From the NCBI GenBank assembly GCA_015057325.1, contig SVEQ01000006.1, forward strand, positions 137,324 to 201,323: a stretch of 64,000 nucleotides of DNA. Reading direction: 5' to 3'. This document shows positions 16,692 through 35,289 of the stretch, one piece after another. The notes under the pieces were generated by a model. That model searched no databases. It worked only from the letters and a program-made list of their open reading frames with translations, and was not told where the DNA came from. The DNA is from Lachnospiraceae bacterium. Lineage in GTDB: Bacteria > Bacillota > Clostridia > Lachnospirales > Lachnospiraceae. Both the position numbers and the translations under genes were made by a program. The stretch's first letter is position 1. Every line of letters starts with the position of its first letter.

Positions 16692-16701
16692 TTTATTTAA
16701 A

Positions 16702-16860: not shown

Positions 16861-16909
16861 ATATATTATATTGCAGGATAACGCACAACGGAAATAGGAT
16901 ATTACAAAT

Positions 16910-19498: not shown

Positions 19499-19633
19499 CG
19501 AGTGTGTGAAAGTTTTTCTGTAAATGAGATATCCTAAGATAATTGACGAGCTGTATGGCGGTAAGATTACCGTTGTCCAGCTCGTTTTGACTATACCTAA
19601 TCCCATTGATTTCGTCAAGAATTATGATAAAAT
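19499..19633 (+). repeat. IS-end/hairpin/promoter module, copy 2
   Basis: Same head as copy 1 (nearly identical over about 40 bases). Hairpin ACGAGCTG (19546-19553) / CAGCTCGT (19578-19585) with inner CGGT/ACCG and T run; promoter TTGATT 19606-19611, 16-base spacer, TAAAAT 19628-19633. It drives the DUF3592 gene. The A-to-G change in the left arm is matched by T-to-C in the right arm compared with copy 1. Confidence 0.75.
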
Positions 19634-19687
19634 TGGTATATAATTATATTCCAGTAAAATAATAAGAATGTGAGGGAGATTTAAATT

Positions 19688-20107: not shown

Positions 20108-20351
20108 TCTTATATATTTGATCTTATAAGACTATTGCTTATCTTGTAAAAACTTTAATGCATCATTGAAGATCCTATGGATGGGCCTTTTATCTCTTCT
20201 AGCTTTGTATTTACCTTAACGTTTCAACTGGATTCTAAAGAAGGAAAGGCCTTGATGCTTTCGGCTCCATATTGTGTTACTGATGGCATTAATGAAGCGT
20301 GTTTTGGTGCTGCAATCCTTGAGCTAGGGATGGGTGAGACCCATATGGATA
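20108..20351 (+). other. Gene-poor stretch with a possible remnant ORF (20177-20359)
   Basis: The stretch between the DUF3592 gene and module 3 contains a 60-codon frame from 20177 that runs into module 3 and ends inside it. No ribosome site precedes its ATG and an in-frame stop lies just upstream, so it looks like the tail of a former gene that was cut when module 3 arrived, not a working gene. I do not recognise the product. Confidence 0.35.
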
Positions 20352-20483
20352 GAGTGTGAAAGTTTTTCTGTAAATAAGATTTCCTAAGATAATAGACGAG
20401 TTAAATAATAGTATTTATGCTATTATTTGACTCGTTTTGACTATACAGATTTTGTTTTATTCCGTCAAGTTTTTTGTTATAAT
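20352..20483 (+). repeat. IS-end/hairpin/promoter module, copy 3
   Basis: Same head with three changes from copy 1. The hairpin is completely different in sequence but is the strongest: a 16-pair stem, 20396-20411 with 20420-20435, one G-T pair, then TTTT. The promoter is TTTTAT, 17-base spacer, TATAAT 20478-20483. It drives the gene at 20520. Confidence 0.75.
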
Positions 20484-20519
20484 GCTTTATGCTACCATAT
20501 CTTAATAGGAGGGCATGAC

Positions 20520-21293
20520 ATGGATGGTGAATTGTACGAGTTGGCAAGACTTGCTTTATATACTAAAAGAACTATGAAAAATGGTAACGAAAATGAATAC
20601 AAACTGGGAGAATATGTGAACAGAATGATTTTTTCATTTCTACCATCAGAAGGTTCTTTCTTTATAAAAGCGGATGAGTGCACTGACACACAAAGTTGGT
20701 ATAAAGCCTTACAAAAACGAGCTGTAAAGGAAATCCACTTAGTAATTTTTTTCGAAGAAAACAATATTAAGTTTGCTGGTTTTTCTAATTCTGCTAAACA
20801 AGGGCTTTTTACAGAGTATAAAGATGGAAAAAAGACGTTTTGGGCTGCTAAATGGGAATTTGATAGTGTATCCAAGTCATGGACGGTTTATTATAAAGAA
20901 TTTGAATGGACTGGTAACTCTAATTTGACATATAACTTTCCTGAGTGCAGTAAAGACTTTGAAAGAGCACTTATTGATATTGAGAAATTAGCATGTAAAC
21001 TTGGCTTTGATAATTTCGCTTATATTTTTAAAGACGCTTATGGCATTCTGACAAGCAAGGATGCTCCTTTAATTCCAGAATGGACAAACGATTCTATGCT
21101 GGATTTACAGGGTGAAAAAGCAAAATTGTTTTGGGCTGCTTCGAGAGCGGATGTTTTTGGCGGAATGGGATCATGGAACGATATCCCAGACTGTGTTGCG
21201 CACGAAATGGGATTGCAAGAAGACTATGATCGACTATCGCATGATTTGTATATTTCTATAAAAAAGGCGGTTATGAATGCGGTAAATTGTTAA
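20520..21293 (+). CDS. Hypothetical protein, possible immunity-type (DUF4303-like)
   Basis: 257 residues from the ATG at 20520, which has AGGAGGG upstream; the ATG at 20427 lies before the module promoter and is rejected. Soluble, mixed alpha/beta, with LEVIFFEENN-like HLVIFFEEN strand, KKTFWAAKWEFD, and a C-terminal VFGGMGSWNDIPD segment followed by a YDRLSHDLY helix. I associate that C-terminal motif with immunity-type proteins of bacterial contact toxins, from memory only. No toxin gene is next to it, so it would be an orphan. Ends in a perfect terminator. Confidence 0.55.
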   Translation: MDGELYELARLALYTKRTMKNGNENEYKLGEYVNRMIFSFLPSEGSFFIKADECTDTQSWYKALQKRAVKEIHLVIFFEENNIKFAGFSNSAKQGLFTEYKDGKKTFWAAKWEFDSVSKSWTVYYKEFEWTGNSNLTYNFPECSKDFERALIDIEKLACKLGFDNFAYIFKDAYGILTSKDAPLIPEWTNDSMLDLQGEKAKLFWAASRADVFGGMGSWNDIPDCVAHEMGLQEDYDRLSHDLYISIKKAVMNAVNC

Positions 21294-21316
21294 CGCGCTA
21301 TATAGCTTGTTAAGTT

Positions 21317-21350
21317 GCAGTTCTACTCGATGTGAGTAGAACTGCTTTTT
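21317..21350 (+). terminator. Rho-independent terminator
   Basis: GCAGTTCTACTC (21317-21328) pairs perfectly with GAGTAGAACTGC (21334-21345), followed by TTTTT. Confidence 0.92.
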
Positions 21351-21352
21351 GT

Positions 21353-21953
21353 TTATTCTGGGAGTCTTCCTTCATACATAATCTGAAGCTCGCCATAGAC
21401 TCTTCCCCAGTTTCGGAGTGGCATGGTCCATTTCTTGGTCGCTTCAAAAGTGGATAGGTATAATGCTTTAAGAATAGCCTGATCACTCGGAAAAACGCTT
21501 CTTTGACGGTTCAGCTTGCGATAAGTGGCATTGAGGCTTTCGATGGCGTTGGTAGTATAGATGACAGTTCTTACCTCTGATGAGAACTTGATGAACCAGG
21601 CATCTCTGATATTCAGTATTAGGAAAGGCGGTAGCTATAGCCTCTTTGATTCCTGAAAGCCCATCAGCACAGACAATCATGATGTCTTTAACTCCTCGAT
21701 TTTTTAACTCATTCAGTACAGAGAGCCAGTATTTAGCGCTTTCATTTTCGCTTCTCTCTGATTTATGATAACCAAGATGGTCATCCATCTCAGCTTCCAT
21801 CATTTCCTTAATGGTGCCACCGAGAAGATCCTTGAGTGCATCTTGGATATCCTCAGCAGTTTCGATGTCATACTCCTGCAGGAGCTGTTGAATAATCTGA
21901 CGTTTTCCGTCTGTCATCTGAACTTTGTGTACGGTTTTCTTTTCTCTTGCCAT
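21353..21953 (-). pseudogene. IS256-family transposase, two internal deletions
   Basis: The frame from ATG 21953 (MAREKKTVHKVQMTDGKRQ) is an intact N-terminus to residue ~68 (HLGYHKSERS), then jumps in frame to the ESAKYWLSVLNELKNRG region: about 125 residues, with the first catalytic Asp, are missing (junction near 21750). A second deletion near 21587, after CLVHQ, shifts the frame; the correct C-terminus (IYTTNAIESLN, then LSTFEATKKWTMPLRNWGR, EGRLPE) continues in another frame to a stop at 21353-21355. About 600 of ~1200 bases remain. It cannot make an active transposase. Confidence 0.9.
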
Positions 21954-21954
21954 A

Positions 21955-22046
21955 ATAAAGGCCTCCTTAAAATATTAATATTTTACCTTAGGAGACCTCA
22001 ATAATACATAACTATTATATTTTTACAGACTTTTTTTCACAGACTC
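21955..22046 (-). repeat. IS256 terminal region with transposase leader
   Basis: Read on the minus strand from 22046: GAGTCTGTGAAAAAAAG, CTGTAAA, then GAGGTCTCCTAAGGTAA and an AT-rich palindrome (TAAAATATTAATATTTTA) that places the transposase GGAGG in a hairpin. The TGTGAAA/CTGTAAA pair and the GAG..TCCTAAG..TAA block recur in the heads of the three modules, which links them to this IS. Confidence 0.75.
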
Positions 22047-22073
22047 AATAATCCCGGCAAATATCATTTTGAT
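22047..22073. repeat. Right copy of the 27-bp flanking duplication
   Basis: Matches 16702-16728 at 26 of 27 positions and directly abuts the IS end at 22046. Here it is part of a complete terminator. Confidence 0.8.
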
Positions 22074-22089
22074 AGTTGTCGGGATTTTG
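22050..22089 (-). terminator. Terminator of yqeY, originally shared with the dehydrogenase
   Basis: AATCCCGGCAA (22050-22060) pairs with TTGTCGGGATT (22076-22086), one G-T pair. T runs occur on both sides, so it could end transcripts from both directions. Its left arm is duplicated at 16702, downstream of the dehydrogenase. Confidence 0.82.
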
Positions 22090-22095
22090 TGGTTT

Positions 22096-22530
22096 TTATG
22101 AAAGTTTTGAAACTACCTGATTGATGAGTTTGCCGTCGGCCTTGCCTTTTAACTCGCCCATTACAGCTTTCATAATCTGTCCTTTGTTGCCGGTTGCGAG
22201 AACATCTGCGAATTTCTCTTTGATAATGCTTTCGATTTCCTCTTCTGAAAGCATCTTTGGTGCATATTCCTGCATGATATCATATCGTGCCTGATATTCA
22301 GCTTTAAGCTCTGCACGCTCATCAGGACATGTGTCTAACTGTTCCTTTACAGATTTAACTTCTTTAAGGATTGCACGGTCAACAACTTCTTCAGGGATGT
22401 CATCTCTTTTTCCTTCATCTATTGCAATCTTCTTTGCTGCGGATACGAGTGTAGAAATAGCATCTTTTCTTGTTTTGTCATGTGCCTTCATGGCAGCAAT
22501 CATGTCTTTTTGTAATGTTTCGAATTGCAT
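22096..22530 (-). CDS. yqeY: GatB/YqeY domain protein
   Basis: 144 residues, full length for YqeY. It has the family N-terminus (LQKDMIAAMKAHDKTRKDAISTLVSAAKK) and the C-terminal GQIMKAVMGELKGKADGKLINQVVSKL, a domain shared with the tail of GatB. Its cellular role is not well defined; a tRNA-related function is suspected from the GatB likeness. AGGAGGAAC lies before the ATG. Monocistronic. Confidence 0.9.
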   Translation of the reverse strand: MQFETLQKDMIAAMKAHDKTRKDAISTLVSAAKKIAIDEGKRDDIPEEVVDRAILKEVKSVKEQLDTCPDERAELKAEYQARYDIMQEYAPKMLSEEEIESIIKEKFADVLATGNKGQIMKAVMGELKGKADGKLINQVVSKLS

Positions 22531-22639
22531 TTATTTGTTCCTCCTGATTATTTCTTTGTTCATGAGTATAGCACAATTTATTCGGTAATTCTATGTTAAC
22601 TGCTTTGAAAAATATATAATATGTATTATAAAAGAAAAA

Positions 22640-23839
22640 ATGATAATTAGACCGGATTATATTAATGAGATTATTCCGTTTATGGATGCTTCGATTGTAA
22701 AAATACTTGCTGGTGTAAGACGTTGTGGCAAATCAACGATTCTTTCTATGCTTGCAGAAGAATTTGAAAAGCGTGGTATTGACAAACAATTCATTATTGA
22801 ACGCCAATATAATGAAGTTGACATTCAAGATGGTTTTTCCTATAAGGATATGTTCAATGATATTAAGGCGCAGATAAAAGGAAAAGAGAGATACTATCTT
22901 TTGTTGGATGAACTTCAGGAGATTGATGGTTGGGAGAAAACGGTTAATACTCTTTTAGAAAAATATAATGTAGATATTTATGTGACAGGCTCCAACTCAA
23001 AGCTGATGTCTTCAGAGATATCCACATATCTTACGGGACGATACGTGTTGATTCCTGTGTATACACTATCGTTACGCGAATATATTGCATTTAAGGGTAA
23101 GAGTGTAAATGATTCACGAACAGTTTTTGATGAGTATGTGCAGTACGGTGGGTTTCCAGTTATCGGTATAAGTAATTTTGACACTAATTCTGCGTATCAA
23201 GTTGTTGAAGGGATATATGCATCGGTTATAACTAATGATATTTCAAAACGTCACAAGATAAGGAATCAGGAACTATTCGACAGAGTCGTAAGATATATAA
23301 TTGAAAATGTAGGTAAAACACTTTCTGCTAACACAATAGTGAAATTTTTAAAAAGTGAAAATAGATCACTTTCTGTTGAGACAATATACAACTATTTAAA
23401 ATGGCTTAATGATGCATTTATCATTTATCCTTGCAAAAGATATGATTTGCAGGGGAAAGAACTGTTAAAAACGCAGGAAAAGTACTACTTATCCGATATC
23501 TCATTTAAATACAGTCAAATGGGATTTGATACAAAAATGCTGTCAGCTTTATTTGAGAATATAGTGTATCTGGAGATGAAAAGACGCGGATATGAGGTAT
23601 ATATCGGTAAAAAATATGATAAAGAAATCGATTTTGTTGGTATCAGGCGCGATGAGAAAATATATGTTCAGGTCTGCGTGCAACTGTCGGCTGAATTGTC
23701 ACGAGAGACAGATAATCTTATGGCTATTAAGGATCATTACAGAAAATATGTGGTGTGTAGGGATCCGCTGGCAGGCGGTAATGTAAACGGAATACAAATT
23801 GTGCATATAGCGGATTTTCTTATAGATGAAAACTGGTGA
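22640..23839 (+). CDS. AAA ATPase with DUF4143 (AAA_14 type)
   Basis: 399 residues. Walker A GVRRCGKST at 25-33, Walker B YYLLLDELQEID near 93-103, a sensor-like YVTGSNSKL, then a winged-helix/nuclease-like C-terminal DUF4143 region with an EIDFVGIRRDEKIYVQV strand, in which E..D..(Q)V is reminiscent of a degraded PD-(D/E)XK fold. The family is very common in anaerobes and its role is unknown; mobile or defence-related roles have been suggested. A weak A-rich ribosome site precedes the ATG. A paralogue is at 49806. Confidence 0.85.
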   Translation: MIIRPDYINEIIPFMDASIVKILAGVRRCGKSTILSMLAEEFEKRGIDKQFIIERQYNEVDIQDGFSYKDMFNDIKAQIKGKERYYLLLDELQEIDGWEKTVNTLLEKYNVDIYVTGSNSKLMSSEISTYLTGRYVLIPVYTLSLREYIAFKGKSVNDSRTVFDEYVQYGGFPVIGISNFDTNSAYQVVEGIYASVITNDISKRHKIRNQELFDRVVRYIIENVGKTLSANTIVKFLKSENRSLSVETIYNYLKWLNDAFIIYPCKRYDLQGKELLKTQEKYYLSDISFKYSQMGFDTKMLSALFENIVYLEMKRRGYEVYIGKKYDKEIDFVGIRRDEKIYVQVCVQLSAELSRETDNLMAIKDHYRKYVVCRDPLAGGNVNGIQIVHIADFLIDENW

Positions 23840-23973
23840 GCTTAGTATGAGTATCAACCCTGATGAGCAGAGCAGCATTATTATCGTGGTGCGGTTAGGA
23901 TGTTTGCATTGTTATTTTTGGATGCTATAAAAGAACTTGCATAAAGAAATCTAAAAAACAAAAACACAAATAG

Positions 23974-24014
23974 CGGTAATTTGCCACTTCTTCAATACGG
24001 AGAGGTGGTTTTTT
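23974..24014 (+). terminator. Rho-independent terminator
   Basis: CCACTTCT pairs with AGAGGTGG (one G-T pair) across a 9-base loop, followed by TTTTTT. A near-identical arm (CCACTTCTTC) forms another hairpin at 26648, in each case just upstream of a TATCCGTT palindrome promoter. Confidence 0.8.
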
Positions 24015-24040
24015 GTTGTTCTTGAATTATCCGATCTACA

Positions 24041-24075
24041 TATCCGTTGATTAACGGATAGCTGCCCCGTATGAT
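24041..24075 (+). promoter_or_regulatory. Palindrome promoter A of the putative WYL regulon
   Basis: TATCCGTT (24041-24048) and AACGGATA (24053-24060) form a perfect palindrome with a 4-base centre that overlaps the -35 box TTGATT (24047-24052). After a 17-base spacer comes TATGAT (24070-24075). The following leader (ATAGGTA..AGCA..AAACAACCGATCGG) is shared with promoter B. Confidence 0.75.
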
Positions 24076-24133
24076 ATAGGTACAGCAATAAACAACCGAT
24101 CGGAGCTGCCAAAGAATAGGAGGCGAGGTGGTA

Positions 24134-24331
24134 GTGGACCAAAAGAAGGTAGTTTACATGAAAAAGTATTTAAAAAAAAGAGACAAAGCCATCAAAGAAC
24201 TGGTTTATGCGCAGTTACAATATGATCCGCAATATCGGGAGTATCTGCGAAGAATTAAAATTAAACGTCTTTGCATAAGAAGTAATATTGTAATTCTTAT
24301 GGTTATAATATTGATATTATGGTTTATGTAA
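24134..24331 (+). CDS. Small basic single-pass membrane protein
   Basis: 65 residues from GTG 24134 (AGGAGG at 24118-24123, spacing 10); GTG 24128 is possible but very close to the ribosome site, and ATG 24158 would give 57 residues. The first 45 residues are strongly basic (KKYLKKRDKAIKEL...RRIKIKRLCIR), followed by one C-terminal membrane segment of hydrophobic residues. No family recognised. Size and charge would suit a toxin-like peptide or a membrane tether, but nothing shows this. Driven by promoter A. Confidence 0.5.
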   Translation: MDQKKVVYMKKYLKKRDKAIKELVYAQLQYDPQYREYLRRIKIKRLCIRSNIVILMVIILILWFM

Positions 24332-24408
24332 GCATCATGCCTGTCGTGTATCTATGAAGCATAGCTGAATAGAAACGAAGATTCAATAAAGAGCGAGAAA
24401 TCTTCAAT

Positions 24409-24442
24409 ATCCGTTGGATGACGGATGATTGACTCGTATGAT
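24409..24442 (+). promoter_or_regulatory. Palindrome promoter B of the putative WYL regulon
   Basis: ATCCGT (24409-24414) and ACGGAT (24421-24426) flank TGGATG; the -35 box TTGGAT (24414-24419) lies in the centre, then 17 bases, then TATGAT (24437-24442). The leader matches promoter A. It directs the RHH-EEP gene. Confidence 0.72.
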
Positions 24443-24512
24443 ATAGGTATAGCAGCAAACAACCGATCGGGCGGCTTAATAAAAAAATACTAATGAAAAT
24501 GGAGGAAAAAAT

Positions 24513-25397
24513 ATGGTAGAAAAAAAGGAATTAAAAAGAGAGATATCATTTAAGGTGCCGGTAGATATGTATGCTAAGTATAAGAGGTATTGCGACTCAC
24601 AGGGAGTTATGCCGGCAGTAGATCTCCGCAGGTATATCACGGAGAGAGCAACATCAAGCTACGTTTTTGGTGAAAGAGTGACTTTCTTTGCTTTAAATAT
24701 GCACATGAAAAATATAGAAAGATATAGTGTTCCATATGACGGTGATGAGGATCAAAGAATTGACGAAATTGCTGATTACATAATAGCTTCACATTCCGAT
24801 GTTGCATGTCTTAGTGAATTCATGCCGACAGAAAAAGGAAAAAGATTAGTAGAAAGATTAGAGAATGCAGGATATACAATTCATTACCCTGTAAGTGATA
24901 TGGATTATGAGAGAGCCAAAAACCTCTGGTGCGTAACCATCTTAGCAATAAAAAATGATCGTGGTCTTAAGTTTGAGCAAATATACGATACAAATGAAAT
25001 GTTTCCACAGTATCGATATGTGGCAGGTGTATTATCAAAAGGTAGCAGTAGTATAGTAATTGTTGGCGTACATGTTCCTTGTGTGGATGATGATACAAAC
25101 CCATATCAGGTCGATAGAAAAGAAAAATCGCTGGCATACCTTAAAGAACTTAAAGATTTATATTCATCAAAACAGGTTTTGTTTTTTGGAGACTTCAATG
25201 AAACCTTTGAAGGCAAAGACATATTTGACGATATGATAGACGTCACTGGGAAAAAGGCTACCTGGGACAAGTATGGCATTGACAAGTTTCTTGTGACACA
25301 GGAATTATCATCGCATTGTAAAGGCTCTGCAGTCATTGATCATCCTGTAATACAGAATTTGACGGATCACTGCGCAATTCGTATGAATTTGGATTAA
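24513..25397 (+). CDS. Ribbon-helix-helix/EEP (endonuclease-exonuclease-phosphatase) fusion
   Basis: 294 residues. Residues 1-48 (KREISFKVPVDMYAKYKRYCDSQG...DLRRYITERA) read like a CopG/Arc-type DNA-binding domain. From ~55 follows an EEP fold: ALNMHMKN, DVACLSEF (metal-binding Glu), VGVHVP, FFGDFNE at 225-230 and LTDHCAI with Asp285-His286. These are the catalytic marks of DNase I/exonuclease III/phosphatase-type enzymes. AATGGAGGAAA precedes the ATG. It could be a sequence-directed nuclease or a phosphodiesterase. Ends in a strong terminator. Confidence 0.7.
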   Translation: MVEKKELKREISFKVPVDMYAKYKRYCDSQGVMPAVDLRRYITERATSSYVFGERVTFFALNMHMKNIERYSVPYDGDEDQRIDEIADYIIASHSDVACLSEFMPTEKGKRLVERLENAGYTIHYPVSDMDYERAKNLWCVTILAIKNDRGLKFEQIYDTNEMFPQYRYVAGVLSKGSSSIVIVGVHVPCVDDDTNPYQVDRKEKSLAYLKELKDLYSSKQVLFFGDFNETFEGKDIFDDMIDVTGKKATWDKYGIDKFLVTQELSSHCKGSAVIDHPVIQNLTDHCAIRMNLD

Positions 25398-25479
25398 ACA
25401 GAGATGTTGATATGTACGTTAGTGGATTGTCTTGGCTTGATTGATGAGTCCTGCGAATATAACAATATAATAGCGTTGG

Positions 25480-25515
25480 CAGGCACAAACAATATCATGG
25501 TTTGTGCCTGTTTTT
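25480..25515 (+). terminator. Rho-independent terminator
   Basis: CAGGCACAAAC (25480-25490) pairs perfectly with GTTTGTGCCTG (25500-25510), followed by TTTTT. Confidence 0.92.
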
Positions 25516-25582
25516 CGTTGTAATGCTATTTCATTTGTGCTATCTTTTAGTAAGGATAAAATCGGTAAAGGAGAGAACGCAA

Positions 25583-26635
25583 ATGACCTTAGAAGAATAC
25601 ATGGAAGAATTGTATCTTATGGATAAACAGTACGGACAGGAGGAAGAACTGTATCCGCTTATAAATATATTGTTGCGTCAATCAGGAAGTGTTGCGGGAT
25701 TGTCGCTTAGGGATGTGCATAATGCGTCAAAGGCTGAGAGTATAAAACATAGAGAATTATTAAAAGGTCCTTCGGGTTTTCCGGATTTAGTGATATTGGA
25801 TAAAGAATTTGGTGAAGATGGTGGAAATCCTTCGAATGATAATAATCAGTATGTGTATGGTTGTCTTGAAGCAAAAATAAACGATGATTTTAAACCAATG
25901 GATGACGAGTATTTAAATAAAAATTTGACTGTAAAAACAAAAACTAAAATATTGATTCGTTATGATGATCAATATAAAAACCCATATTATATTATTGTTG
26001 ATAATGACTTCTCGGAAATAAAAATAAATAATGATTATTATTGTATATATATGGACGGGGATAAGAATGAAAAGATTTATAATAATCAAAAGGAGATATT
26101 TAATGATAATCATATAGATACAATAAAATTGGATGAATTTGACATTTCAAGTGTGAAACATATTTATTACACTAAAGTCGACCCATATGGAATCACTAAA
26201 GAAACAACTGTGAAAGAATTGGTGAATAACATTCGAGATAATCTAAGTTCTGATGATATTATTATCTTTAAAAAACTAACAATAATTTGTTGTCAAGACG
26301 AAGAGACAACAATCAATACACAATTATTTGGACAAATAGTTTTCTTTGGTAATGTTATATATACAGATGGAAAGACCTGGCATTTATACAAAAGAGAATG
26401 TTATAACGAAGTTGAAGGAGGACATAATATCAAGATATCACATGAAGTGATTGGTGATTTGAGCGAGATATTTGATAGTTATAAAGAATACAAAAAAGAG
26501 ATAAGGGAGATAGATAAATATGTAGATTGTCACGTATATAAGTTTACACCTGCTGCATATAAAAAATGGAAAGAGCTTTTAAAAAACCTAGCCAAAATTG
26601 AATGGGAACCCGAAATTGAAGAAACAAAAGAATAG
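25583..26635 (+). CDS. PD-(D/E)XK-type nuclease-like protein
   Basis: 350 residues from the ATG at 25583, with AAAGGAGAG upstream; the longer frame from 25502 overlaps the preceding terminator and is rejected. Early part: a helical region, then GFPDLVIL (Pro67-Asp68) and YGCLEAKI (Glu96-x-Lys98), the core of PD-(D/E)XK nucleases. The middle (residues ~130-200) is very rich in Asn, Asp, Tyr and Ile with low complexity. The C-terminus has no recognised domain. Function is an inference; the motif is short and could be coincidental. The A+T content is higher than in neighbours, a sign of transfer. Confidence 0.55.
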   Translation: MTLEEYMEELYLMDKQYGQEEELYPLINILLRQSGSVAGLSLRDVHNASKAESIKHRELLKGPSGFPDLVILDKEFGEDGGNPSNDNNQYVYGCLEAKINDDFKPMDDEYLNKNLTVKTKTKILIRYDDQYKNPYYIIVDNDFSEIKINNDYYCIYMDGDKNEKIYNNQKEIFNDNHIDTIKLDEFDISSVKHIYYTKVDPYGITKETTVKELVNNIRDNLSSDDIIIFKKLTIICCQDEETTINTQLFGQIVFFGNVIYTDGKTWHLYKRECYNEVEGGHNIKISHEVIGDLSEIFDSYKEYKKEIREIDKYVDCHVYKFTPAAYKKWKELLKNLAKIEWEPEIEETKE

Positions 26636-26647
26636 CATCATCCCCAA

Positions 26648-26672
26648 CCACTTCTTCATTTTGAAGAAGTGG
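26648..26672 (+). terminator. Hairpin after the PD-(D/E)XK gene, likely terminator
   Basis: CCACTTCTTC (26648-26657) pairs perfectly with GAAGAAGTGG (26663-26672). The following sequence is TATAAATTT and not a pure T run, so termination may be weak. The arm matches the terminator at 23974. Confidence 0.65.
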
Positions 26673-26688
26673 TATAAATTTAATCACA

Positions 26689-26725
26689 CTATCCGTTGGT
26701 GAACGGATAGTCGAAGAGGTATAAA
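26689..26725 (+). promoter_or_regulatory. Palindrome promoter C of the putative WYL regulon
   Basis: CTATCCGTT (26689-26697) and AACGGATAG (26702-26710) form a perfect 9-base palindrome. The -35 TTGGTG (26696-26701) overlaps it, an 18-base spacer follows, then TATAAA (26720-26725). It drives the acidic peptide, WYL gene and probably the three phosphoesterases. The leader can fold through CGAAG.GGTAT/ATACCTTCG. Confidence 0.72.
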
Positions 26726-26777
26726 TAAAACGTAAACAAAAAACGAAATACCTTCGAAGAAAGAGAGGCTGATTAAT

Positions 26778-26906
26778 ATGAAAAATATGTATGATGAAGA
26801 AACTTTTGACGGCATTCTTTGGGATGACGTTATGTCTAATTTTTTCCCGGAAGCAAGAAATGAGGATGACATCGCAGAGGAACTGGAAGATATCTGGAAT
26901 GATTGA
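26778..26906 (+). CDS. Very acidic 42-residue peptide
   Basis: Short frame MKNMYDEETFDGILWDDV..., ending DIWND, preceded by AGAGAGG and 50 bases downstream of promoter C. It has 15 Asp/Glu against one Lys and one Arg (net about -13), three aromatic clusters, no Cys and no membrane segment. The spacing to the WYL gene is 51 bases, so they are probably co-transcribed. Acidic peptides of this kind can act as DNA mimics or as partners of a DNA-binding protein; that is only a suggestion. Confidence 0.55.
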   Translation: MKNMYDEETFDGILWDDVMSNFFPEARNEDDIAEELEDIWND

Positions 26907-26957
26907 ATTATAATCATATACAGATAAAGAAAACAAAGTAAAAAAGGAGATGTTTGT

Positions 26958-28136
26958 ATGGCTAATAAAAGTAAGAAGAGTGGAAAAGTCGGGAATGTGA
27001 GAAAGGATCCGATTGATTTAATACATATAAGGATACTTGATGTTCTCAAAAAAAATACAAACTATGACAAACCTATGCTTTTGCAGGATTTAACACGCAA
27101 TGTCTATGGTTATAACGTGGAACAATGGAAAAGTATAGGGACCAAAGAACGTGATCATGGAATGGAATGTGTTAAAAAGAATGTAGAACAAATTGGCAGG
27201 CTTGAAAAGGAGAAAAGCAAAAGTGAATGGCATCCGCCGATAGTATTTGCTTATAATGATAAAGAAAAGACGAAAGGTACAAAGATGAAAATCTGGTATG
27301 AGCAGAATTTCACATTTTCTGAGCTTAATCTATTGTATGCGAGTTTTTTGCATTGCAGCATGCTTCCGGCTACTGCAAGAAAAGATCTGTTAAAAAAGGT
27401 CGCTGATATTGCGTGCGTTGATGCAGACTACACTTTGCGAGGAATTGAAGAATTATATGATGTTAAGAGTGCTGAGATGTCAAAAGACGAGCATTCATTT
27501 AAGAAAAAAAGGATAGAAAACAATTTGCTTGAAAACATTGATATACTATTGGAGGCTATGGCAGAGCCTTATGAGGCCAGACCGCTTAGAATTGAGTTTG
27601 ATTACTGTAACTATACAAAAGAGGGAAAATATAAGACTATACGAAATCATTGGAAATACAAAGTATCGCCGGTAACGCTTATTATTGATCAAGGTACTTT
27701 TTGGCTGTTAGGTATTGATGAAAGGAATAAAGGAGAATATACCCGATATAGAGTAGATCGTATGAAGAATATAGAGCAATATCAGGATTATGATGCTACA
27801 AAATTACAAAGAGAAGATAAGGAAGTTTATAATGAGAACTATAGCGTCAGGCATATGTTTGGTAGTTACGGTGAGACAATTGAAGTAGTGGTGAAGCTTC
27901 TCAATAAAAAGACTTCTTACAATCTTGTGTATGAAACCTTTGGAGAGGATTTTGAATGGGTTGATAAAGACGATGGTTTTGATAGGATCAAGATTATAGG
28001 GACAGAGTATGGCATTATGAAATGGGCGTTAGTAAATCTTCGTGATGTAGAAGTAGAGACGGAAAGCGTGCGTAAGGCAATAGTTAAGGAATTACAAGGG
28101 TTAAATGGGTTGTATCTGAAAAAAGAGAACGGCTGA
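26958..28136 (+). CDS. WYL-domain transcriptional regulator
   Basis: 392 residues. N-terminal winged-helix-like region (DLIHIRILDVLKKNTNYDKPMLLQDLTRNVYG, residues ~17-60), a middle helical region, then the WYL domain with HWKYKVSPVTLIIDQGTFWLLGID and YRVDRMKNIE (residues ~225-275) and a C-terminal extension (WCX-like) from ~300. WYL proteins bind small ligands or nucleic acids and are known to regulate phage-defence islands (BrxR, CapW). AAAAAGGAG precedes the ATG. It is the only dedicated regulator in the island and the obvious candidate for binding the TATCCGTT palindromes. Confidence 0.85.
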   Translation: MANKSKKSGKVGNVRKDPIDLIHIRILDVLKKNTNYDKPMLLQDLTRNVYGYNVEQWKSIGTKERDHGMECVKKNVEQIGRLEKEKSKSEWHPPIVFAYNDKEKTKGTKMKIWYEQNFTFSELNLLYASFLHCSMLPATARKDLLKKVADIACVDADYTLRGIEELYDVKSAEMSKDEHSFKKKRIENNLLENIDILLEAMAEPYEARPLRIEFDYCNYTKEGKYKTIRNHWKYKVSPVTLIIDQGTFWLLGIDERNKGEYTRYRVDRMKNIEQYQDYDATKLQREDKEVYNENYSVRHMFGSYGETIEVVVKLLNKKTSYNLVYETFGEDFEWVDKDDGFDRIKIIGTEYGIMKWALVNLRDVEVETESVRKAIVKELQGLNGLYLKKENG

Positions 28137-28179
28137 ATATGATAAAAGCATCATTTTACTGATGAAAAGAGGTGATTTT

Positions 28180-28896
28180 ATGGCTACATACGCTATTTCC
28201 GATATTCACGGAGAATATGACAAGTTTATTGAACTACTCAATATCATCAATCTTAAGGAAGAGGATACATTATATGTTTTGGGTGACATTTTGGACAGGG
28301 GACCTTACCCAATCAAGGTTTTGAAAAAGTTGATGGGAATGCCCAATGTTATATGTATTGTAGGTAATCATGAAATTATGGCGCTTGAATGTCTTGAATT
28401 TCTTTCTAAGGAAATAACAGACACTTCTTTAGAAGAATTAGATAAAGAGATGTTAGAAAACCTGGTTACATGGCAATATAACGGAAGTAGTACAACCATC
28501 AAAGAGTTTAAAGAGTTAGATAAGGAATCACGAATTGACGTGATAGAATACATAAAGGATTTTCTGGTGTATGATAAGTTGACGATAGAAGGAAGAAAGT
28601 TTCTCCTTGTACATGCCGGACTTGGAAACTTTTCGCCGGATAAAGATATTGAAGATTATTCTTTGCATGATCTGGTGTGGAAACGGGCTGATTATAATGT
28701 GCAGTATTTTGATGATGTGTATGTCATAAGCGGTCATACGCCGACGCAAACGATTGAGGGAAATCCAAATCCCGGGTTCATTTACAAAAACAATAACCAT
28801 ATCGCCATAGATTGCGGGGCTCATTATCCGGGTGGAAGGCTAGCTGCCATATGTTTAGATACGATGGAAGAGTTTTACGTTGGAACGGGTTGTTGA
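28180..28896 (+). CDS. PPP-family metallophosphoesterase 1
   Basis: 238 residues from the ATG at 28180 (AGAGGTGA upstream); the ATG at 28162 precedes that site and is rejected. Metal-binding motifs: SDIHGE (7-12), GDILDRG (35-41), GNHE (62-65), HAGL, SGHTPT and a C-terminal IDCGA. This is the bacterial PPP pattern found in PrpA/PrpE-like protein phosphatases and ApaH-like Ap4A hydrolases. Substrate could be phosphoproteins or dinucleotides. First of three consecutive members. Confidence 0.85.
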   Translation: MATYAISDIHGEYDKFIELLNIINLKEEDTLYVLGDILDRGPYPIKVLKKLMGMPNVICIVGNHEIMALECLEFLSKEITDTSLEELDKEMLENLVTWQYNGSSTTIKEFKELDKESRIDVIEYIKDFLVYDKLTIEGRKFLLVHAGLGNFSPDKDIEDYSLHDLVWKRADYNVQYFDDVYVISGHTPTQTIEGNPNPGFIYKNNNHIAIDCGAHYPGGRLAAICLDTMEEFYVGTGC

Positions 28897-28993
28897 ACTA
28901 AGACGTATTCGATGGGCAAATTAAACTAATAGTTCAATGACAAGTTGATGATAGCGAGATATAATAAAAAAAATTGGAAAGGTGGATGAAATT

Positions 28994-29707
28994 ATGAGTA
29001 AAGTTTTAGTGATACCGGACGTGCATTTAAAGCCTTGGATATTCGATCAGGCAGTGGAAATAATGGTAAATACCGACTGCGAGAGAGCGGTGTGCGTTGG
29101 CGATGTCGTTGATGATTGGGACAAACAAAAAGATGTCAGATTATATGAGAAAACGTTGGATAAAATGTTGGACTTTGCGAGAAGATATCCCGATACCTTG
29201 TGGTGCATGGGTAACCATGATTTATCATATCTCTGGGAACAGTACGATCATCCGGGTTATTCCGTGATGGCGGCTGATATGGTTGTTTCAAAGTTTGAGA
29301 TGCTTAAAGATATAGCAACTTTGCCGGAATATGTCGGCATAATACATAGACTTGATAATACTATCTTTTCACATGCAGGATTATGTAAAGACTTTGTTCT
29401 TACGCAATTGGGTGAAATGATGGGAGATATTGATTGTATGTTGGATACAATTAACGGTTATGGTGTAGAAGAATTGTGGGAAAATAATTCGCCAATTTGG
29501 GTTAGACCACAATACGGCAGGCTTACTAACGGACTCTATTCCGAAGGACTATTGCAAGTTGTTGGGCATACTCCGGTAATGGAGATACTTGTTGAGGATG
29601 GTATTATAACGGTAGATACATTCTCGACATATCCAAATGGAAGACCACTTGGAAATCAGGTTTTATGCTGGATTGATACTGTTTCAAAAGAGTATGGTTT
29701 GCTTTAA
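28994..29707 (+). CDS. Metallophosphoesterase 2 (divergent)
   Basis: 237 residues from the ATG at 28994, with AAAGGTGG eight bases upstream; an in-frame GTG at 28982 lies within that site. Motifs: PDVHL (8-12, HL instead of HG), GDVVDDW (36-42, lacking the RG), GNHD (73-76), SHAGL, VGHTPV, and VDTFS instead of IDCGA. It is the most divergent of the three; the loss of the Arg after the second motif suggests a substrate without the usual phosphate contact. Confidence 0.8.
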   Translation: MSKVLVIPDVHLKPWIFDQAVEIMVNTDCERAVCVGDVVDDWDKQKDVRLYEKTLDKMLDFARRYPDTLWCMGNHDLSYLWEQYDHPGYSVMAADMVVSKFEMLKDIATLPEYVGIIHRLDNTIFSHAGLCKDFVLTQLGEMMGDIDCMLDTINGYGVEELWENNSPIWVRPQYGRLTNGLYSEGLLQVVGHTPVMEILVEDGIITVDTFSTYPNGRPLGNQVLCWIDTVSKEYGLL

Positions 29708-29725
29708 ATATAGGAGGACGATACA

Positions 29726-30541
29726 ATGATCTACGCTATGAGTGATATACATGGTTGCATTGACGCACTGGAAAAGAAAATGGAAAATGTTAATCTTGAG
29801 GGGGATAACCGTATCATCTTTCTGGGTGATTACATTGATTACGGGAAAAATTCCGGAAGTGTGCTTAGATTTATCCATGACCTGCAAAAACAATATGGCG
29901 AAGAAAAAGTAATAGTGCTTAAGGGTAATCATGAAGCAATGCTCCTTGAATGGATAGATGATTTCAAAAAAGGTCTTACTCCCGAGATGGGGGAACTAGT
30001 ATATGATTCTTGGTTAAAGACTGATTCGGAACATAGATACAATACATTTAGAACTTTGGTTAAAAAAGAACAGTTAGAGCAACTACTGGAAATAAAAAAG
30101 ACAGCGTCGTTTGGTAAACTAAATGTTACTGCAGTTAAAATGCTGCTTGAGACAAATGGCGATCTTATCAAATGGATTAGATTAATGCCAAGTTTTTATG
30201 AAACCCCAAACCAGATTTTTGTTCATGCCGGTGTTGATGAGGAGGCTGAAGATTTTTGGAAATGGGGAACAGGAGATGAGATTTTTCTTGGAAAGTTTCC
30301 TGCGTCCTTGGGTAAGTTTTGTAAGACTATAGTTGCAGGCCATGTTGGTACGGGAAGCATTGCGAGAGATAAGTCGTTTCATGATATTTATTATGATGGA
30401 GTAAGCCACTATTATATTGACGGTTCGGTGTACAAACACGGGAAACTTCTGCTTCTTGCATACGATGAAGAAAATGATAAATACTATCAGATAGAAAATG
30501 GCAGGCAGGTTCCTATACATAAGTTTGAAAAGTACAGATAA
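29726..30541 (+). CDS. PPP-family metallophosphoesterase 3
   Basis: 271 residues; TAGGAGGACG precedes the ATG, 18 bases after the previous stop. Motifs: SDIHG (6-10), GDYIDYG (34-40, Tyr in place of Arg), GNHE (67-70), HAGV, AGHVGTG, and YYIDGSVY at the end. An insertion of ~50 residues after GNHE (residues 75-150) is longer than in the first paralogue. A strong terminator follows, so the operon from promoter C ends here. Confidence 0.82.
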   Translation: MIYAMSDIHGCIDALEKKMENVNLEGDNRIIFLGDYIDYGKNSGSVLRFIHDLQKQYGEEKVIVLKGNHEAMLLEWIDDFKKGLTPEMGELVYDSWLKTDSEHRYNTFRTLVKKEQLEQLLEIKKTASFGKLNVTAVKMLLETNGDLIKWIRLMPSFYETPNQIFVHAGVDEEAEDFWKWGTGDEIFLGKFPASLGKFCKTIVAGHVGTGSIARDKSFHDIYYDGVSHYYIDGSVYKHGKLLLLAYDEENDKYYQIENGRQVPIHKFEKYR

Positions 30542-30551
30542 CGAGACTGAA

Positions 30552-30595
30552 AAATCCTGGCAATTACTGTGAGTGGTAATTGCCGGGATTGTTTT
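30552..30595 (+). terminator. Rho-independent terminator ending the phosphoesterase operon
   Basis: AATCCTGGCAATTAC (30553-30567) pairs with GTAATTGCCGGGATT (30576-30590), one T-G pair, followed by GTTTT. It is also placed to end the convergent DinB-like gene. Confidence 0.9.
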
Positions 30596-31106
30596 ACTTC
30601 TTGCGATATCTTCCAAATAGAATTCCGTCGTCGATATATTTGTCTGCGTCAGACACCCACATTGGAAACTTGCCGGTTGCAACAGCGGTTTGACCGTTTA
30701 GCATTCCTGTATGAAATGAAAGGTGTCTGTATTGTCGAAGTACCAGTTCAAATCTTGTATAAGGGCAGTTCTCGGGTTTTTCATAAAGCATTTCATCTGT
30801 TAGAGTATCAAGATATGCGAATGTCTTCTCTACAACATGATCAAGGTATGCAAGAAGTTGTTCGTCTGATAATATAACACTTGTCGGATTGTCCGGGTTA
30901 TCCATTCCATCTTCGTGGAAGTCGGGCTCGTCATACACAAACGGGTTTATGAACCATTTATCGGCTGAATGAAGGGCGTGATAAGCCCAACGCCAGCATG
31001 GAGCACCACAGCATATCGCATCTCTGTCATAACTCTGAATGGACGTCTTAATATTAAGGAAATTGGGTTTAATAGTTTCTTTGATAATCTCAATCAATTC
31101 TCTCAT
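30594..31106 (-). CDS. DinB-like (four-helix, metal-binding) protein
   Basis: 170 residues from the ATG at 31106, which has AAGGAGG upstream; the start at 31139 lacks one. Helical protein with WRWAYHALHSADKWF and RQYRHLSFHTGML, whose His residues match the metal site of DinB/YfiT-type proteins. These proteins include thiol-dependent transferases; the role here is unknown. Monocistronic, divergent from a LysR gene. Confidence 0.7.
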   Translation of the reverse strand: MRELIEIIKETIKPNFLNIKTSIQSYDRDAICCGAPCWRWAYHALHSADKWFINPFVYDEPDFHEDGMDNPDNPTSVILSDEQLLAYLDHVVEKTFAYLDTLTDEMLYEKPENCPYTRFELVLRQYRHLSFHTGMLNGQTAVATGKFPMWVSDADKYIDDGILFGRYRKK

Positions 31107-31237
31107 AATTGTTATCCTCCTTATTAAACACGATTGCAATTTCTTTGTTCTGGATTTATAATACCATTAGAATAACTATCAGTAAAATTGAAATAAATAA
31201 TTATAACAATCAAAATATATGATTGGAGGGGATAAGG

Positions 31238-32116
31238 ATGACACTTACACAACTTTCAACATTTATAGAGATAGCAGATACGAACAATTTTACATCGGCG
31301 GCGAACAAACTTGGTTATGCACAGTCGACAGTTACAACGCAGATAAAACAACTTGAAGAGGAACTTGGGTGCCCTGTGTTTGACAGACTTGGGAAGACGG
31401 TGGTGCTTACGCCGGCAGGGTACAGACTTCTTATGTATGCCAACAAGCTTTTGCAGTTAGAACGTGAGATTCACATGGAGGTTCCGGAAGCGGATGAGCC
31501 TTCGGGAGTTTTGAAACTTGGTGTATCCGAGTCGCTATGTTATAACAGACTTCCACACTATCTTATGGAGTATAAGACAAGGTATCCTAAGGTTGATATA
31601 CAGATACATTTCATCATGCACGATACATTCCCTGAAATGCTTAAAAAAGGTGAACTGGATCTTGTCTATACGCTTAACCCTCTTATAGAGGACGAGAATT
31701 TGGACATGCTATATAAGAAAGAAGAGACGTTAGGGTTTTACGTAAGTCCCACACATCCGCTTGCAAAGAAAAAGAAAGTCGTTGAAGCAGATTTGAATGA
31801 TGTGCCATTGTTGCTCACATCACATAATTGTAGTTTCAGACATATGCTACTTAATGATTTCGAAGATAAACAGATAAAGTCAAATGTTATATTGGAAACG
31901 AGCAGTAAGGAGGTTCTTAAACAATTTGCAATGAACGGTCTCGGGGTAGCATTTATGCCTGATATGGCAGCGGAGAAAGAATTGGAGAACAAAAGCCTTG
32001 TGCGACTTCCATGGAAGGGTGCAGACTTCCCTATATATTCGCAGGTGTTTGTCCATAAGGATAAATATGTTAATAAAGCAATAGAAGGAATGCTTAATCT
32101 AATTAGTGAAGATTGA
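31238..32116 (+). CDS. LysR-family transcriptional regulator
   Basis: 292 residues from the ATG at 31238 (GGAGGGG upstream); the TTG at 31223 is rejected. N-terminal winged helix (FTSAANKLGYAQSTVTTQIKQLEEELGCPVFDR, residues ~17-50), then a two-lobed substrate-binding domain. It is divergent from the DinB-like gene and upstream of pepD; either may be a target. The intergenic DNA is A+T-rich with no clear T-N11-A palindrome that I would defend. Confidence 0.88.
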   Translation: MTLTQLSTFIEIADTNNFTSAANKLGYAQSTVTTQIKQLEEELGCPVFDRLGKTVVLTPAGYRLLMYANKLLQLEREIHMEVPEADEPSGVLKLGVSESLCYNRLPHYLMEYKTRYPKVDIQIHFIMHDTFPEMLKKGELDLVYTLNPLIEDENLDMLYKKEETLGFYVSPTHPLAKKKKVVEADLNDVPLLLTSHNCSFRHMLLNDFEDKQIKSNVILETSSKEVLKQFAMNGLGVAFMPDMAAEKELENKSLVRLPWKGADFPIYSQVFVHKDKYVNKAIEGMLNLISED

Positions 32117-32163
32117 TAATTTAATATACATACCACGTTTTTGTATAGGAGGACTATGAAAAA

Positions 32164-33627
32164 ATGAGATTATTAGAAGGATTACAACCCGAAAAGGTGT
32201 TTTATTACTTTGAGGAGATAAGCAATATTCCAAGAGGTTCATATCATGAGAAAGCGATAAGTGATTATTTGGTCGAGTTTGCAAAAGCACATGGGATTAC
32301 TTACTTTCAGGACGAATTGTATAATGTCGTGATGCAGGTGAGCGCAAGTAAAGGAAGAGAAAATGATGAACCGGTTATCCTTCAAGGACATATGGATATG
32401 GTTTGCGAGGCGCGTCCGGGTGTTGATATTGATATGGAAAAAGAACCGCTTAAACTTTGTGTAGATGGCGATTATGTATATGCTAAGGATACGACTCTTG
32501 GTGGTGATGACGGAATAGCGGTTGCTTATATGCTTGCGATTGCTGATGATGAGAATATTTCACATCCACCGCTTGAATATATAATAACCGTGTCTGAAGA
32601 AGTCGGCATGGAGGGCGCAAATGGAATAGACTTATCAATGTTAAAAGGGCATGCGATGTTAAATGTTGACTCTGAAGACGAGGGAGTGTTCACAACAAGT
32701 TGTGCGGGTGGTGTTTCTGTGCATGTTACGCTTCCGCTTGATAGAGAGGATTTATCAGATGATGTGAGTTTGGTTGAGTTATCAGTGTCGGGCCTTGTTG
32801 GTGGGCATTCGGGTTGCGAGATTGATAAAGGCAGAGCAAATGCTAATAAGATACTTGGCAGGGCGTTGTATGAACTGTCTGAGAAGGTTGATTTTTGTAT
32901 AGTAAAACTTTGGGGTGGAAAGAAGGATAATGCGATTCCTATACAGGCGAATGCAATTATAGGATTGTCGGAGGACAACGCTATTAAAACGCTAGAAGAT
33001 TTTCTTGAAAAACTCAACCAGGAACTGAAAAAGGAATACCTTAAGGTAGATGAAAATATCACATTGTTTTCAAAAAGAATTGCTAATATTAAGAGTGATA
33101 CTATGAGTAAAGCATTTACCGAATCTTCAAGAGACAAAATCATAACGTATCTAATGTGTGTGCCAAACGGAATACAGAATATGAGTATGTCGGTTCCCGG
33201 ACTTGTTGAAACTTCACTTAACCTTGGAATACTTGAAACAAAAGAGAATCATTTATTTGCGCAGCATTCGGTGAGAAGTAGTGTGAGTACGAGGAAGGAA
33301 TATGTTGTCAAACAGCTTCAATCACTAGCAATCGCACTTGGTGGCAAGGTTGAATGCAAGGGCGATTATCCTGCGTGGGAATATCGAGAGGACTCAAAGG
33401 TGCGTGACAGGGCAGTTTTACTTTGGAAGCAGATGTATGGCAAAGAACCTGTGGTTGAAGGAATTCACGCAGGCCTGGAATGTGGATTGTTAGCAGCTAA
33501 GATTAAGAATCTAGATTGTATATCTATTGGTCCGGATATGAATGATATACACACCTATAATGAACGATTGTCTATATCTTCCACAAAGAGAGTGTATGAT
33601 TTTATCGTCGAGTTTTTGAATGTGTAA
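32164..33627 (+). CDS. pepD: Aminoacyl-histidine dipeptidase
   Basis: 487 residues, M20 metallopeptidase of the PepD type. LQGHMDMVCE (metal His and catalytic Asp near residue 80), TTLGGDDGIAVA (bridging Asp), SEEVGMEGA (catalytic and metal Glu), MLNVDSEDEG, and the closing HAGLECG. It cleaves Xaa-His and related dipeptides in the cytoplasm. The AGGAGG site first meets an ATG at 32156 that gives only M-K-K-stop; the pepD ATG at 32164 is properly spaced. Confidence 0.92.
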   Translation: MRLLEGLQPEKVFYYFEEISNIPRGSYHEKAISDYLVEFAKAHGITYFQDELYNVVMQVSASKGRENDEPVILQGHMDMVCEARPGVDIDMEKEPLKLCVDGDYVYAKDTTLGGDDGIAVAYMLAIADDENISHPPLEYIITVSEEVGMEGANGIDLSMLKGHAMLNVDSEDEGVFTTSCAGGVSVHVTLPLDREDLSDDVSLVELSVSGLVGGHSGCEIDKGRANANKILGRALYELSEKVDFCIVKLWGGKKDNAIPIQANAIIGLSEDNAIKTLEDFLEKLNQELKKEYLKVDENITLFSKRIANIKSDTMSKAFTESSRDKIITYLMCVPNGIQNMSMSVPGLVETSLNLGILETKENHLFAQHSVRSSVSTRKEYVVKQLQSLAIALGGKVECKGDYPAWEYREDSKVRDRAVLLWKQMYGKEPVVEGIHAGLECGLLAAKIKNLDCISIGPDMNDIHTYNERLSISSTKRVYDFIVEFLNV

Positions 33628-33721
33628 GTGCTTAATTTTAGGTTGTGGGTTTACTAAAATAATGATAAAATGAAACCTAGTTGAAATGAATTAAACGAGT
33701 ACAAGATAGGAGGGTATCTAT

Positions 33722-34123
33722 ATGGCATGTTTTTTGGTACCAACAGGTGAAGCGATTGTCACAACAGTTTTGACAAAAGCTTTCAAATCAAAAGAGAAAG
33801 CGGAACTTGAAGCAACTAATGAAGAAATCAGCGAAAAGGTGTCTTCTAAGATTCCTTTCTCTAAGAAACTATCATGGCTTAACAATATGCTTTGGGGTGG
33901 TTCGGCACTTCTTGCATTTGAGCATGTATGGCATGGAGAGGTTGTTCCTTGGTTTCCGTTTTTGACGGCTATGGAAAGTCCTGATGAGGCTTCAGCGATG
34001 CTTCACGAGATGTCGACGGTTGGTGTTTCGATGGCTGTGTTGGTTACAGCAGTATGGGGTATTATGGTGCTTGCTTCGGATATAATTATGAAAGGCGATG
34101 CAGTTAGCAAAATTAAACAATAA
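33722..34123 (+). CDS. Small membrane protein upstream of larB
   Basis: 133 residues, TAGGAGGG before the ATG. An N-terminal amphipathic stretch (ACFLVPTGEAIVTTVLTKAFKSKEK), a charged segment, then two membrane helices (about 62-80 and 103-122) joined by a loop with HVWHGE. No known family. Twelve bases before the next small membrane gene, so the two probably act together. His and Glu in the loop between helices could bind a metal, but this is speculative. Confidence 0.7.
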   Translation: MACFLVPTGEAIVTTVLTKAFKSKEKAELEATNEEISEKVSSKIPFSKKLSWLNNMLWGGSALLAFEHVWHGEVVPWFPFLTAMESPDEASAMLHEMSTVGVSMAVLVTAVWGIMVLASDIIMKGDAVSKIKQ

Positions 34124-34135
34124 AGGAGAGTAGCT

Positions 34136-34444
34136 ATGACATTATTAATTACAGTATTGGCAGCATGTGTTGCTACTATAGTATGGTATAAGATAACACC
34201 AAACAGTACAATGGGAATTGGCTTTTTGGTGCTTACGTATTGGGGCGCGTCACTTATGTGGTTGTGTGATGCTATATTTGAATATAGGGAATTGGGTGCC
34301 GAATTTTTTACACCGAGTGTAGAAGATATGATAAATGATATTTTTCTTGGTTTTTCGGTTGTCGCACTTGGCCTTATCATATGGCTTGTAAGACTTATGA
34401 TTAAAGATCCTGAAGGAAAACTTAAACAAAATTTGAGCAAATAG
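34136..34444 (+). CDS. Small three-helix membrane protein
   Basis: 102 residues with three hydrophobic helices (about 2-18, 26-46, 68-90) and a polar loop EYRELGAEFFTPSVEDM. AAAGGAGAG lies before the ATG. Coupled with the gene upstream and followed by a terminator, so these two form their own small operon next to larBC. No known family. Confidence 0.7.
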   Translation: MTLLITVLAACVATIVWYKITPNSTMGIGFLVLTYWGASLMWLCDAIFEYRELGAEFFTPSVEDMINDIFLGFSVVALGLIIWLVRLMIKDPEGKLKQNLSK

Positions 34445-34452
34445 ATTATAAG

Positions 34453-34481
34453 AACTGTCATGAGTTGTCATGGCAGTTTTT
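34453..34481 (+). terminator. Rho-independent terminator
   Basis: AACTGTCATGA (34453-34463) pairs with TCATGGCAGTT (34468-34478), one T-G pair, followed by T residues. It separates the small membrane pair from larB. Confidence 0.8.
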
Positions 34482-34514
34482 GTGCATGATACAGAAGGAT
34501 GTTTGTGAGGGAAT

Positions 34515-35276: not shown

Positions 35277-35289
35277 GGGAAGGTGTAAT

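Follow-up and report, generated by a model that had tools for sequence, protein, structure and literature searches.

A candidate WYL-regulated cassette of nuclease-like and phosphoesterase genes in a Lachnospiraceae bacterium

What kind of system is encoded where several promoter-like regions carry the same palindrome, one of them in front of a gene for a WYL-domain regulator? The question is raised by positions 24,041 to 30,541 of a 64,000-nucleotide stretch from a Lachnospiraceae bacterium (assembly GCA_015057325.1, contig SVEQ01000006.1, positions 137,324 to 201,323 of the forward strand). This whole stretch is called the window here, and it corresponds to contig C22 of its genome (3.05 Mb, 24 contigs). 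An initial annotation, made from the sequence alone, had proposed a WYL-controlled defence or stress system. Based on the analysis described below, the locus may be read, with moderate confidence, as a WYL-repressed, autoregulated and mobile cassette for nucleic-acid cleavage and end processing, probably for stress or phage conflict.

The sequence TATCCGTTNNNNAACGGATA is found in the window without mismatches at 24041-24060 and 26690-26709, and with two mismatches at 24408-24427. All three palindromes of the initial annotation are real, with the corrections that the middle copy is imperfect and that the last two start at 24408 and 26690 (24409 and 26689 had been given).

24041-24060, no strand: palindrome TATCCGTTGATTAACGGATA, overlapping the -35 box predicted for the small-protein gene (mismatch, genome and promoter scans)
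24408-24427, no strand: imperfect palindrome, overlapping the -35 box predicted for the EEP gene (mismatch and promoter scans)
26690-26709, no strand: palindrome TATCCGTTGGTGAACGGATA, with symmetric arms to 10 bp, overlapping the -35 box predicted for the acidic peptide-WYL operon

The locus has the following genes, all on the forward strand. A second copy of the cassette, labelled L024, is present in G255, a Lachnospiraceae metagenome-assembled genome from roe-deer rumen (record JAFUXG010000007.1).

24128-24331, +: P0007, small basic protein that ends in a hydrophobic C-terminal segment (by eye); its 3' part is also present at L024 6549-6651
24513-25397, +: P0002, RHH-like N-terminus (by eye) and EEP nuclease domain (Pfam, exonuclease III models, residue alignment)
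25583-26635, +: P0006, PD-(D/E)XK-like nuclease (motif only), no palindrome in front
26778-26906, +: P0008, 42-residue acidic peptide (charge -13), 74% identical in L024
26958-28136, +: P0001, WYL-domain regulator (Pfam WYL; profile alignment), 81% identical in L024
28180-28896, +: P0003 (PPP1), NinI/ApaH-like PPP phosphoesterase (Metallophos 2.2e-16; PHROG 246 1.3e-44)
28994-29707, +: P0004 (PPP2), divergent calcineurin-like phosphoesterase (Metallophos family); the L024 slot differs
29726-30541, +: P0005 (PPP3), PPP phosphoesterase (Metallophos 1.5e-12; PHROG 246 3.7e-29)

The initial annotation had allowed for a palindrome that is widespread at unrelated promoters and for homologues that do not co-occur, and neither was observed. 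Genome-wide, exact TATCCGTTNNNNAACGGATA is found in two places, both in the cassette, and its reversed control in none. At up to three mismatches, 31 places were found versus 19 for the reversed control, indicating that the weaker matches outside the cassette are noise. Among 26 genomes of the genus, TATCCGTTNNNNAACGGATR without mismatches is limited to the window's own genome (G000) and G255, which both carry this WYL gene; at one mismatch it is found in eight others, at one place each (reversed control: two genomes). The second genome also holds the cassette genes, and partial sets co-occur in other genera. The EEP profile has matches in the same two of 26 genus genomes and in one of 344 genomes of the order, the window's own. 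In L024, palindromes are located at 3976 (three mismatches, before the EEP gene), 7654 (none, before the acidic peptide gene) and 7906 (one, directly 5' of the WYL gene). The dyads of the WYL operon are longer, with arms of 10 bp at window 26690, 11 bp at L024 7654 and, with one mismatch, 12 bp at L024 7906, and in both genomes such a dyad is part of the WYL gene's own predicted promoter. In all six palindromes, a -35-like hexamer can be assigned from palindrome base 7, followed by a 17-18 bp spacer and a -10-like hexamer, and at 26690 the register from base 8 scores slightly higher. A self-regulating WYL regulon with its own predicted operator is well supported, because the exact palindromes, this WYL gene and the EEP gene are limited to the same two genomes and the L024 sites have the same promoter position.

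The regulator assignment of P0001 held up, with a Pfam WYL score of 24.7 bits against a cut-off of 21.8. A profile alignment to 18 further WYL regulators spans columns 1-393 with a probability of 99.1, its N-terminal part being poorly aligned, and no PDB sequence match was found. The close relative in G255 is the only one among 25 other genus genomes, where the remaining WYL matches are 25-34% identical. A profile of both WYL copies matched one of 397 family genomes, the window's own, and a search with P0001 alone matched two of 250 genomes including its own, the second at 29% identity. The acidic peptide upstream was also recovered as described, and it is under coding constraint (nonsynonymous difference pN 0.132 versus synonymous difference pS 0.550 between window and L024).

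BrxR and CapW are WYL regulators that control defence loci; the BrxR site has 11-bp arms and a 5-bp gap, and the CapW palindromes are 19-24 bp and lie over the -10 box (PMC9122601, PMC9122588). WYL domains have been proposed to bind nucleotides or nucleic-acid fragments (PMC4012209). The cassette resembles the BrxR (BREX) and CapW (CBASS) systems in having a WYL regulator and a predicted inverted repeat of at least about 20 bp in the promoter of its own operon, and its arms of 10, 11 and 12 bp are comparable with the sites of both. Unlike the CapW site over the -10 and the BrxR site downstream of the -10, the cassette site lies over the predicted -35, and the genes that it regulates belong to neither BREX nor CBASS. 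The initial annotation had not recognised the combination as a named system, and scans with Pfam, NCBIfam, PHROGs and PADLOC gave no named system for the effector set. The gene combination was also not described in the titles and abstract openings searched, which is weak evidence given the partial journal coverage. The regulator is of a familiar type, its predicted operator lying over the predicted -35, and the effector set does not correspond to a named system.

Regarding the effectors, the fusion of RHH and EEP domains that had been proposed for P0002 is supported in its EEP part. Pfam Exo_endo_phos (E 0.0045) and exonuclease III models (about 7e-6) match, all under cut-off, and the catalytic Asn/Glu/Asp-x-Asn/Asp/Asp-His set is intact. 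N62, E102, D227, N229, D257, D285 and H286 are invariant in all three P0002 sequences, including a 24%-identical relative from another genus; the catalytic role of each residue is the one that we presume from EEP nucleases in general. The RHH domain was seen by eye only and has no Pfam or PDB match. The PD-(D/E)XK-like gene lies between the EEP gene and the WYL operon, as described. Its assignment is at motif level: P67-D68 and E96-x-K98 are kept in all four aligned relatives, no Pfam family was found, and relatives are present in two of 298 other family genomes.

The operon of peptide, WYL regulator and three phosphoesterases exists as a set of genes, and each of the three phosphoesterases matches Metallophos. 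Its description as one operon needs to be qualified. Gaps are short from the peptide gene to P0003 and from P0004 to P0005, and 97 bp separate P0003 from P0004, which include the best promoter match of the region:

28937-28965, +: candidate own promoter of P0004 (ATGACA-17-TATAAT), 11/12 consensus bases

In addition, L024 holds an AAA_33 kinase-like gene (4e-10) in the P0004 slot, with PHROG matches including 'ATPase' (6.5e-5) and 'polynucleotide kinase' (0.00069), and its PPP3 lacks about 49 N-terminal residues. Since the middle gene is replaced and the third is shortened, the three phosphoesterases do not form a fixed set. No polynucleotide kinase was found in the window cassette by family scan. 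Relatives of P0004 (42-49% identity) are present in 12 of 294 other genomes of the order. Nearly the whole of P0003 and of P0005 aligns with the NinI-like phage Ser/Thr phosphatases (PHROG 246); unlike these, the cassette is chromosomal, and the 13 distant relatives of P0003 on viral contigs are only 28-37% identical. The adjacent kinase-like and PPP genes in L024 and L133, and the HAD_SAK_2 genes near PPP1 relatives in L134, L147 and L150, resemble the HAD_SAK/Pnkp ('Swiss Army Knife') RNA repair systems. Unlike in those systems, the cassette proteins are separate, family scans found no ligase or HAD_SAK family, and P0003 scores 31.6 bits with the Pnkp model, far below the cut-off of 750.

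As judged from alignment, the cassette is a discrete insertion of about 6.6 kb in a variable site. The inserted stretch of about 23907-30549 was delimited with one uninterrupted relative, G264, which has the same neighbours without the cassette, and in which homology resumes at window 30550, four bases past a glycerate-kinase-like gene. The names of the neighbouring genes (glycerate kinase, pepD, DinB-like, LysR-like, dehydrogenase) were assigned by eye.

23867-23906, +: left border, 40-bp remnant of the 3' end of the gene filling the place in G264 (glycerate-kinase-like, by eye), 87.5% match to L077 11744-11783
30550-30590, +: right border, where G264 homology resumes, including a terminator-like hairpin (alignment, terminator scan)

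In G258, the closest genome by pepD identity (94%), only 1.1 kb with a different gene separates the blocks that match window 3543-16692 and 32162-35390. The 15.5-kb site (16693-32161) is thus absent there and variable as a whole. In L024, the cassette also lies before this pepD-like gene, and its other side is flanked by genes for an MspI-type restriction enzyme and a C5 DNA methylase. The synonymous difference between the two copies is 0.376 for the WYL gene, 0.475 for PPP1 and 0.550 for the peptide gene, compared with 0.779 for pepD and 0.705 for the next gene. These lower values compared with the neighbouring pepD suggest that the WYL-PPP1 core moved by transfer or recombination.

Relatives of single components are more common than the cassette. 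PPP1 matches at E<=1e-20 were found in 38 of 299 family genomes, own included. There were 43 non-self matches, and the loci of 27 of them, in rows 2-24 and 27-30 on the match list, were compared. At least one other PPP, second metallophosphoesterase, HAD_SAK_2, kinase, EEP, RdRP-like or P0006-like gene is present in 10 of these loci. The loci of P0004 relatives (13 of 14 non-self matches) all lack a partner, one metallophosphoesterase match at E 1e-4 being left out. HAD_SAK_2 exceeds its Pfam cut-off in L134, L150, L173 and L147. WYL genes are present in two of the 27 PPP1 loci, L141 (29.4 bits, over cut-off, with a sigma-70 region 2-like start just under its own cut-off) and L147 (profile E 1.5e-6; Pfam 16.4 bits, under cut-off), where roughly 0.2-0.4 loci would be expected by chance at an estimated three or so WYL genes per genome. 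This co-occurrence of WYL and PPP1 in other genera is suggestive only. No perfect dyad with 8-bp arms was found near these two WYL genes in the short stretches checked. In G118, relatives of P0006 and PPP1, an EEP protein and an RdRP-like protein are all encoded within about 9 kb.

In the proposed mechanism, modelled on BrxR and CapW, a WYL dimer would bind the dyads and block RNA polymerase, and the repressor would be released by a ligand that forms when DNA or RNA is damaged or a phage infects. The EEP nuclease and the phosphoesterases, in L024 together with the polynucleotide-kinase-like enzyme, would cut nucleic acid and trim or rephosphorylate its ends; alternatively, the cassette enzymes would remove a nucleotide signal. 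The acidic peptide may, as a guess, act as a DNA-mimic modulator of the WYL protein. If this reading is true, WYL-controlled systems would gain a new effector set (EEP with PPP/kinase end processing), and the ligand sensed by a WYL repressor could be tested directly in a regulon that is small, clearly delimited and equipped with a defined operator.

Several results weigh against this reading. Binding, repression and enzyme activity are all predicted from sequence, and the PPP enzymes may act on proteins or small nucleotides. No Pfam HTH (wHTH) or WCX family was detected in the end pieces of P0001, the N-terminus included, and no RNA ligase family was found by family scans among the scanned proteins of either copy. 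A stricter promoter scan of 23800-30700 recovered just one of the window's three palindrome promoters, that at 24041 with 9/12 consensus bases, and the 32 promoter-like sites of this region are no excess over the 29.2 in shuffled sequences; the promoter positions are therefore predictions by consensus match. P0004 has its candidate own promoter at 28937, and P0006 also seems (by eye) to have one. The full gene set is known from two genomes, and the synonymous differences of the EEP (0.694), PD-(D/E)XK (0.677) and PPP3 (0.806) genes are near or above that of pepD. Among the PPP1 loci, 17 of 27 lack any of the partners sought. The partner profiles were seeded partly from the same loci, which makes the comparison a description more than a test, and the WYL profile included L141 itself.

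A possible but doubtful alternative, which overlaps with the cleavage and end-processing reading, is phage defence proper, in which the WYL protein would silence the EEP nuclease and its partners until infection, after which the nuclease would attack phage or host nucleic acid. The defence loci under BrxR and CapW control, the variable site, the restriction enzyme and methylase that adjoin the L024 cassette (with a Vsr gene further down) and the L147 row of WYL, HAD_SAK_2 and PPP1 genes, whose neighbours are a helicase-DUF2726 gene and an OLD-like TOPRIM match below its cut-off, are consistent with this. Yet PADLOC recognised no defence system in the cassette, to which it assigned only WYL models (labelled CRISPR-associated) and two weak matches, PDC-S10 for P0005 (E 0.0017) and an orphan methyltransferase model for P0002 (E 0.012). 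Searches of the phage and plasmid collections with the WYL protein gave no match.

A further reading, to which a low probability is given, would be an unnamed inducible immunity or damage-response system. In it, a ligand-released WYL repressor with operators at several promoters would control an EEP nuclease and an interchangeable end-processing slot, PPP1-[PPP2 or polynucleotide-kinase-like]-PPP3. Parts of these enzymes would recur across Lachnospiraceae as separate RNA-damage modules, accompanied by HAD_SAK_2 and, in a single genome, by an RdRP-like protein.

It is unlikely that the cassette serves signalling, with the PPP proteins as protein or dinucleotide-polyphosphate phosphatases, a nucleotide-sensing WYL protein and the nucleases as incidental neighbours. 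Sequences and models of ApaH and of Ser/Thr phosphatases are matched by P0003 and P0005, chiefly at the N-terminal motifs, and the palindrome scan of the window found none 5' of P0006, which both fit this explanation. It is opposed by the palindrome 5' of the EEP gene in both genomes and by the PPP1 relatives that adjoin kinase-like or HAD_SAK_2 genes.

Less probable still is that the palindrome belongs to another regulator, such as the RHH-like part of P0002, and that the WYL gene merely travels along. The leader shared by two palindrome promoters in the initial annotation was confirmed as a 64-nt stretch with 83% identity. The leader of the small-protein gene and that of the EEP gene have a second dyad in common, CCGATCGG, at 24096 and 24463, so that two DNA-binding proteins with two sites may be involved. 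In L024, however, CCGATCGG is present in the EEP leader only (4030), and the palindrome is located 5' of the peptide gene and again of the WYL gene; CCGATCGG was not found elsewhere in the window or L024. This layout fits the WYL protein on the palindrome and the RHH-like part on CCGATCGG, which is a possible site for it.

It is very improbable that accessory genes were merely brought together by chance in an insertion hotspot and that the palindromes are a coincidence, to which the differing gene order of the two copies and the truncated PPP3 and small-protein remnant in L024 could point. Against this stand six palindromes in the same promoter position and the absence of exact sites from 24 other genus genomes.

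A phage or plasmid origin of the cassette was also considered and rejected. P0001 and P0004 gave no tblastn match in the plasmid and phage collections, and P0002 gave none in the plasmid collection, the only one searched with it. Scans of viral contigs recovered no relative of P0001, its alignment A1, A2, P0004 or the L024 kinase. The relatives of P0003 on viral contigs are distant, as are those of P0005, which are present in 257 plasmid records, all below 60% identity; one of two such loci viewed lies among hypothetical proteins and the other in a polysaccharide gene set.

The variable site also holds a piece of a Mutator-family transposase (21483-21953) and an AAA_14/DUF4143 gene (22640-23839). 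The latter gives a strong PDC-S01 match in PADLOC and is outside the cassette, for which a named defence system was rejected. No RNA families were detected at the gathering threshold in 20000-34000. Around the second copy, L024 246-3824 and 13496-13924 encode a PIN7-domain protein, the C5 methylase, the MspI-type endonuclease and Vsr.

Three of the related loci have further features, all on the reverse strand. In L141 (11466-13112), the protein that joins a sigma-70 region 2-like N-terminus to a WYL C-terminus is encoded 5' of an NT5C-type HAD gene and the PPP1 relative. In L147 (8025-14784), the helicase-DUF2726 gene, the short OLD-like TOPRIM match, the WYL gene, a gene for a 323-aa protein, HAD_SAK_2 and the PPP1 relative form one row. 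In L148 (11786-15262, contig C49 of G118), a 1158-aa bacterial protein with a match to Pfam RdRP PF05183 (E 1.8e-9) and a DFDGD motif is encoded between the EEP gene and the P0006 relative.

Finally, hairpins were observed in front of some of the palindromes by terminator and promoter scans and leader comparison:

23983-24009, +: terminator-like hairpin before the first palindrome, with a similar one at 26648-26673

Alike hairpins of the form CCACTTCTTCA...GTGG are located shortly 5' of two window palindromes (23984-24009 and 26648-26673) and of one in L024 (7610).

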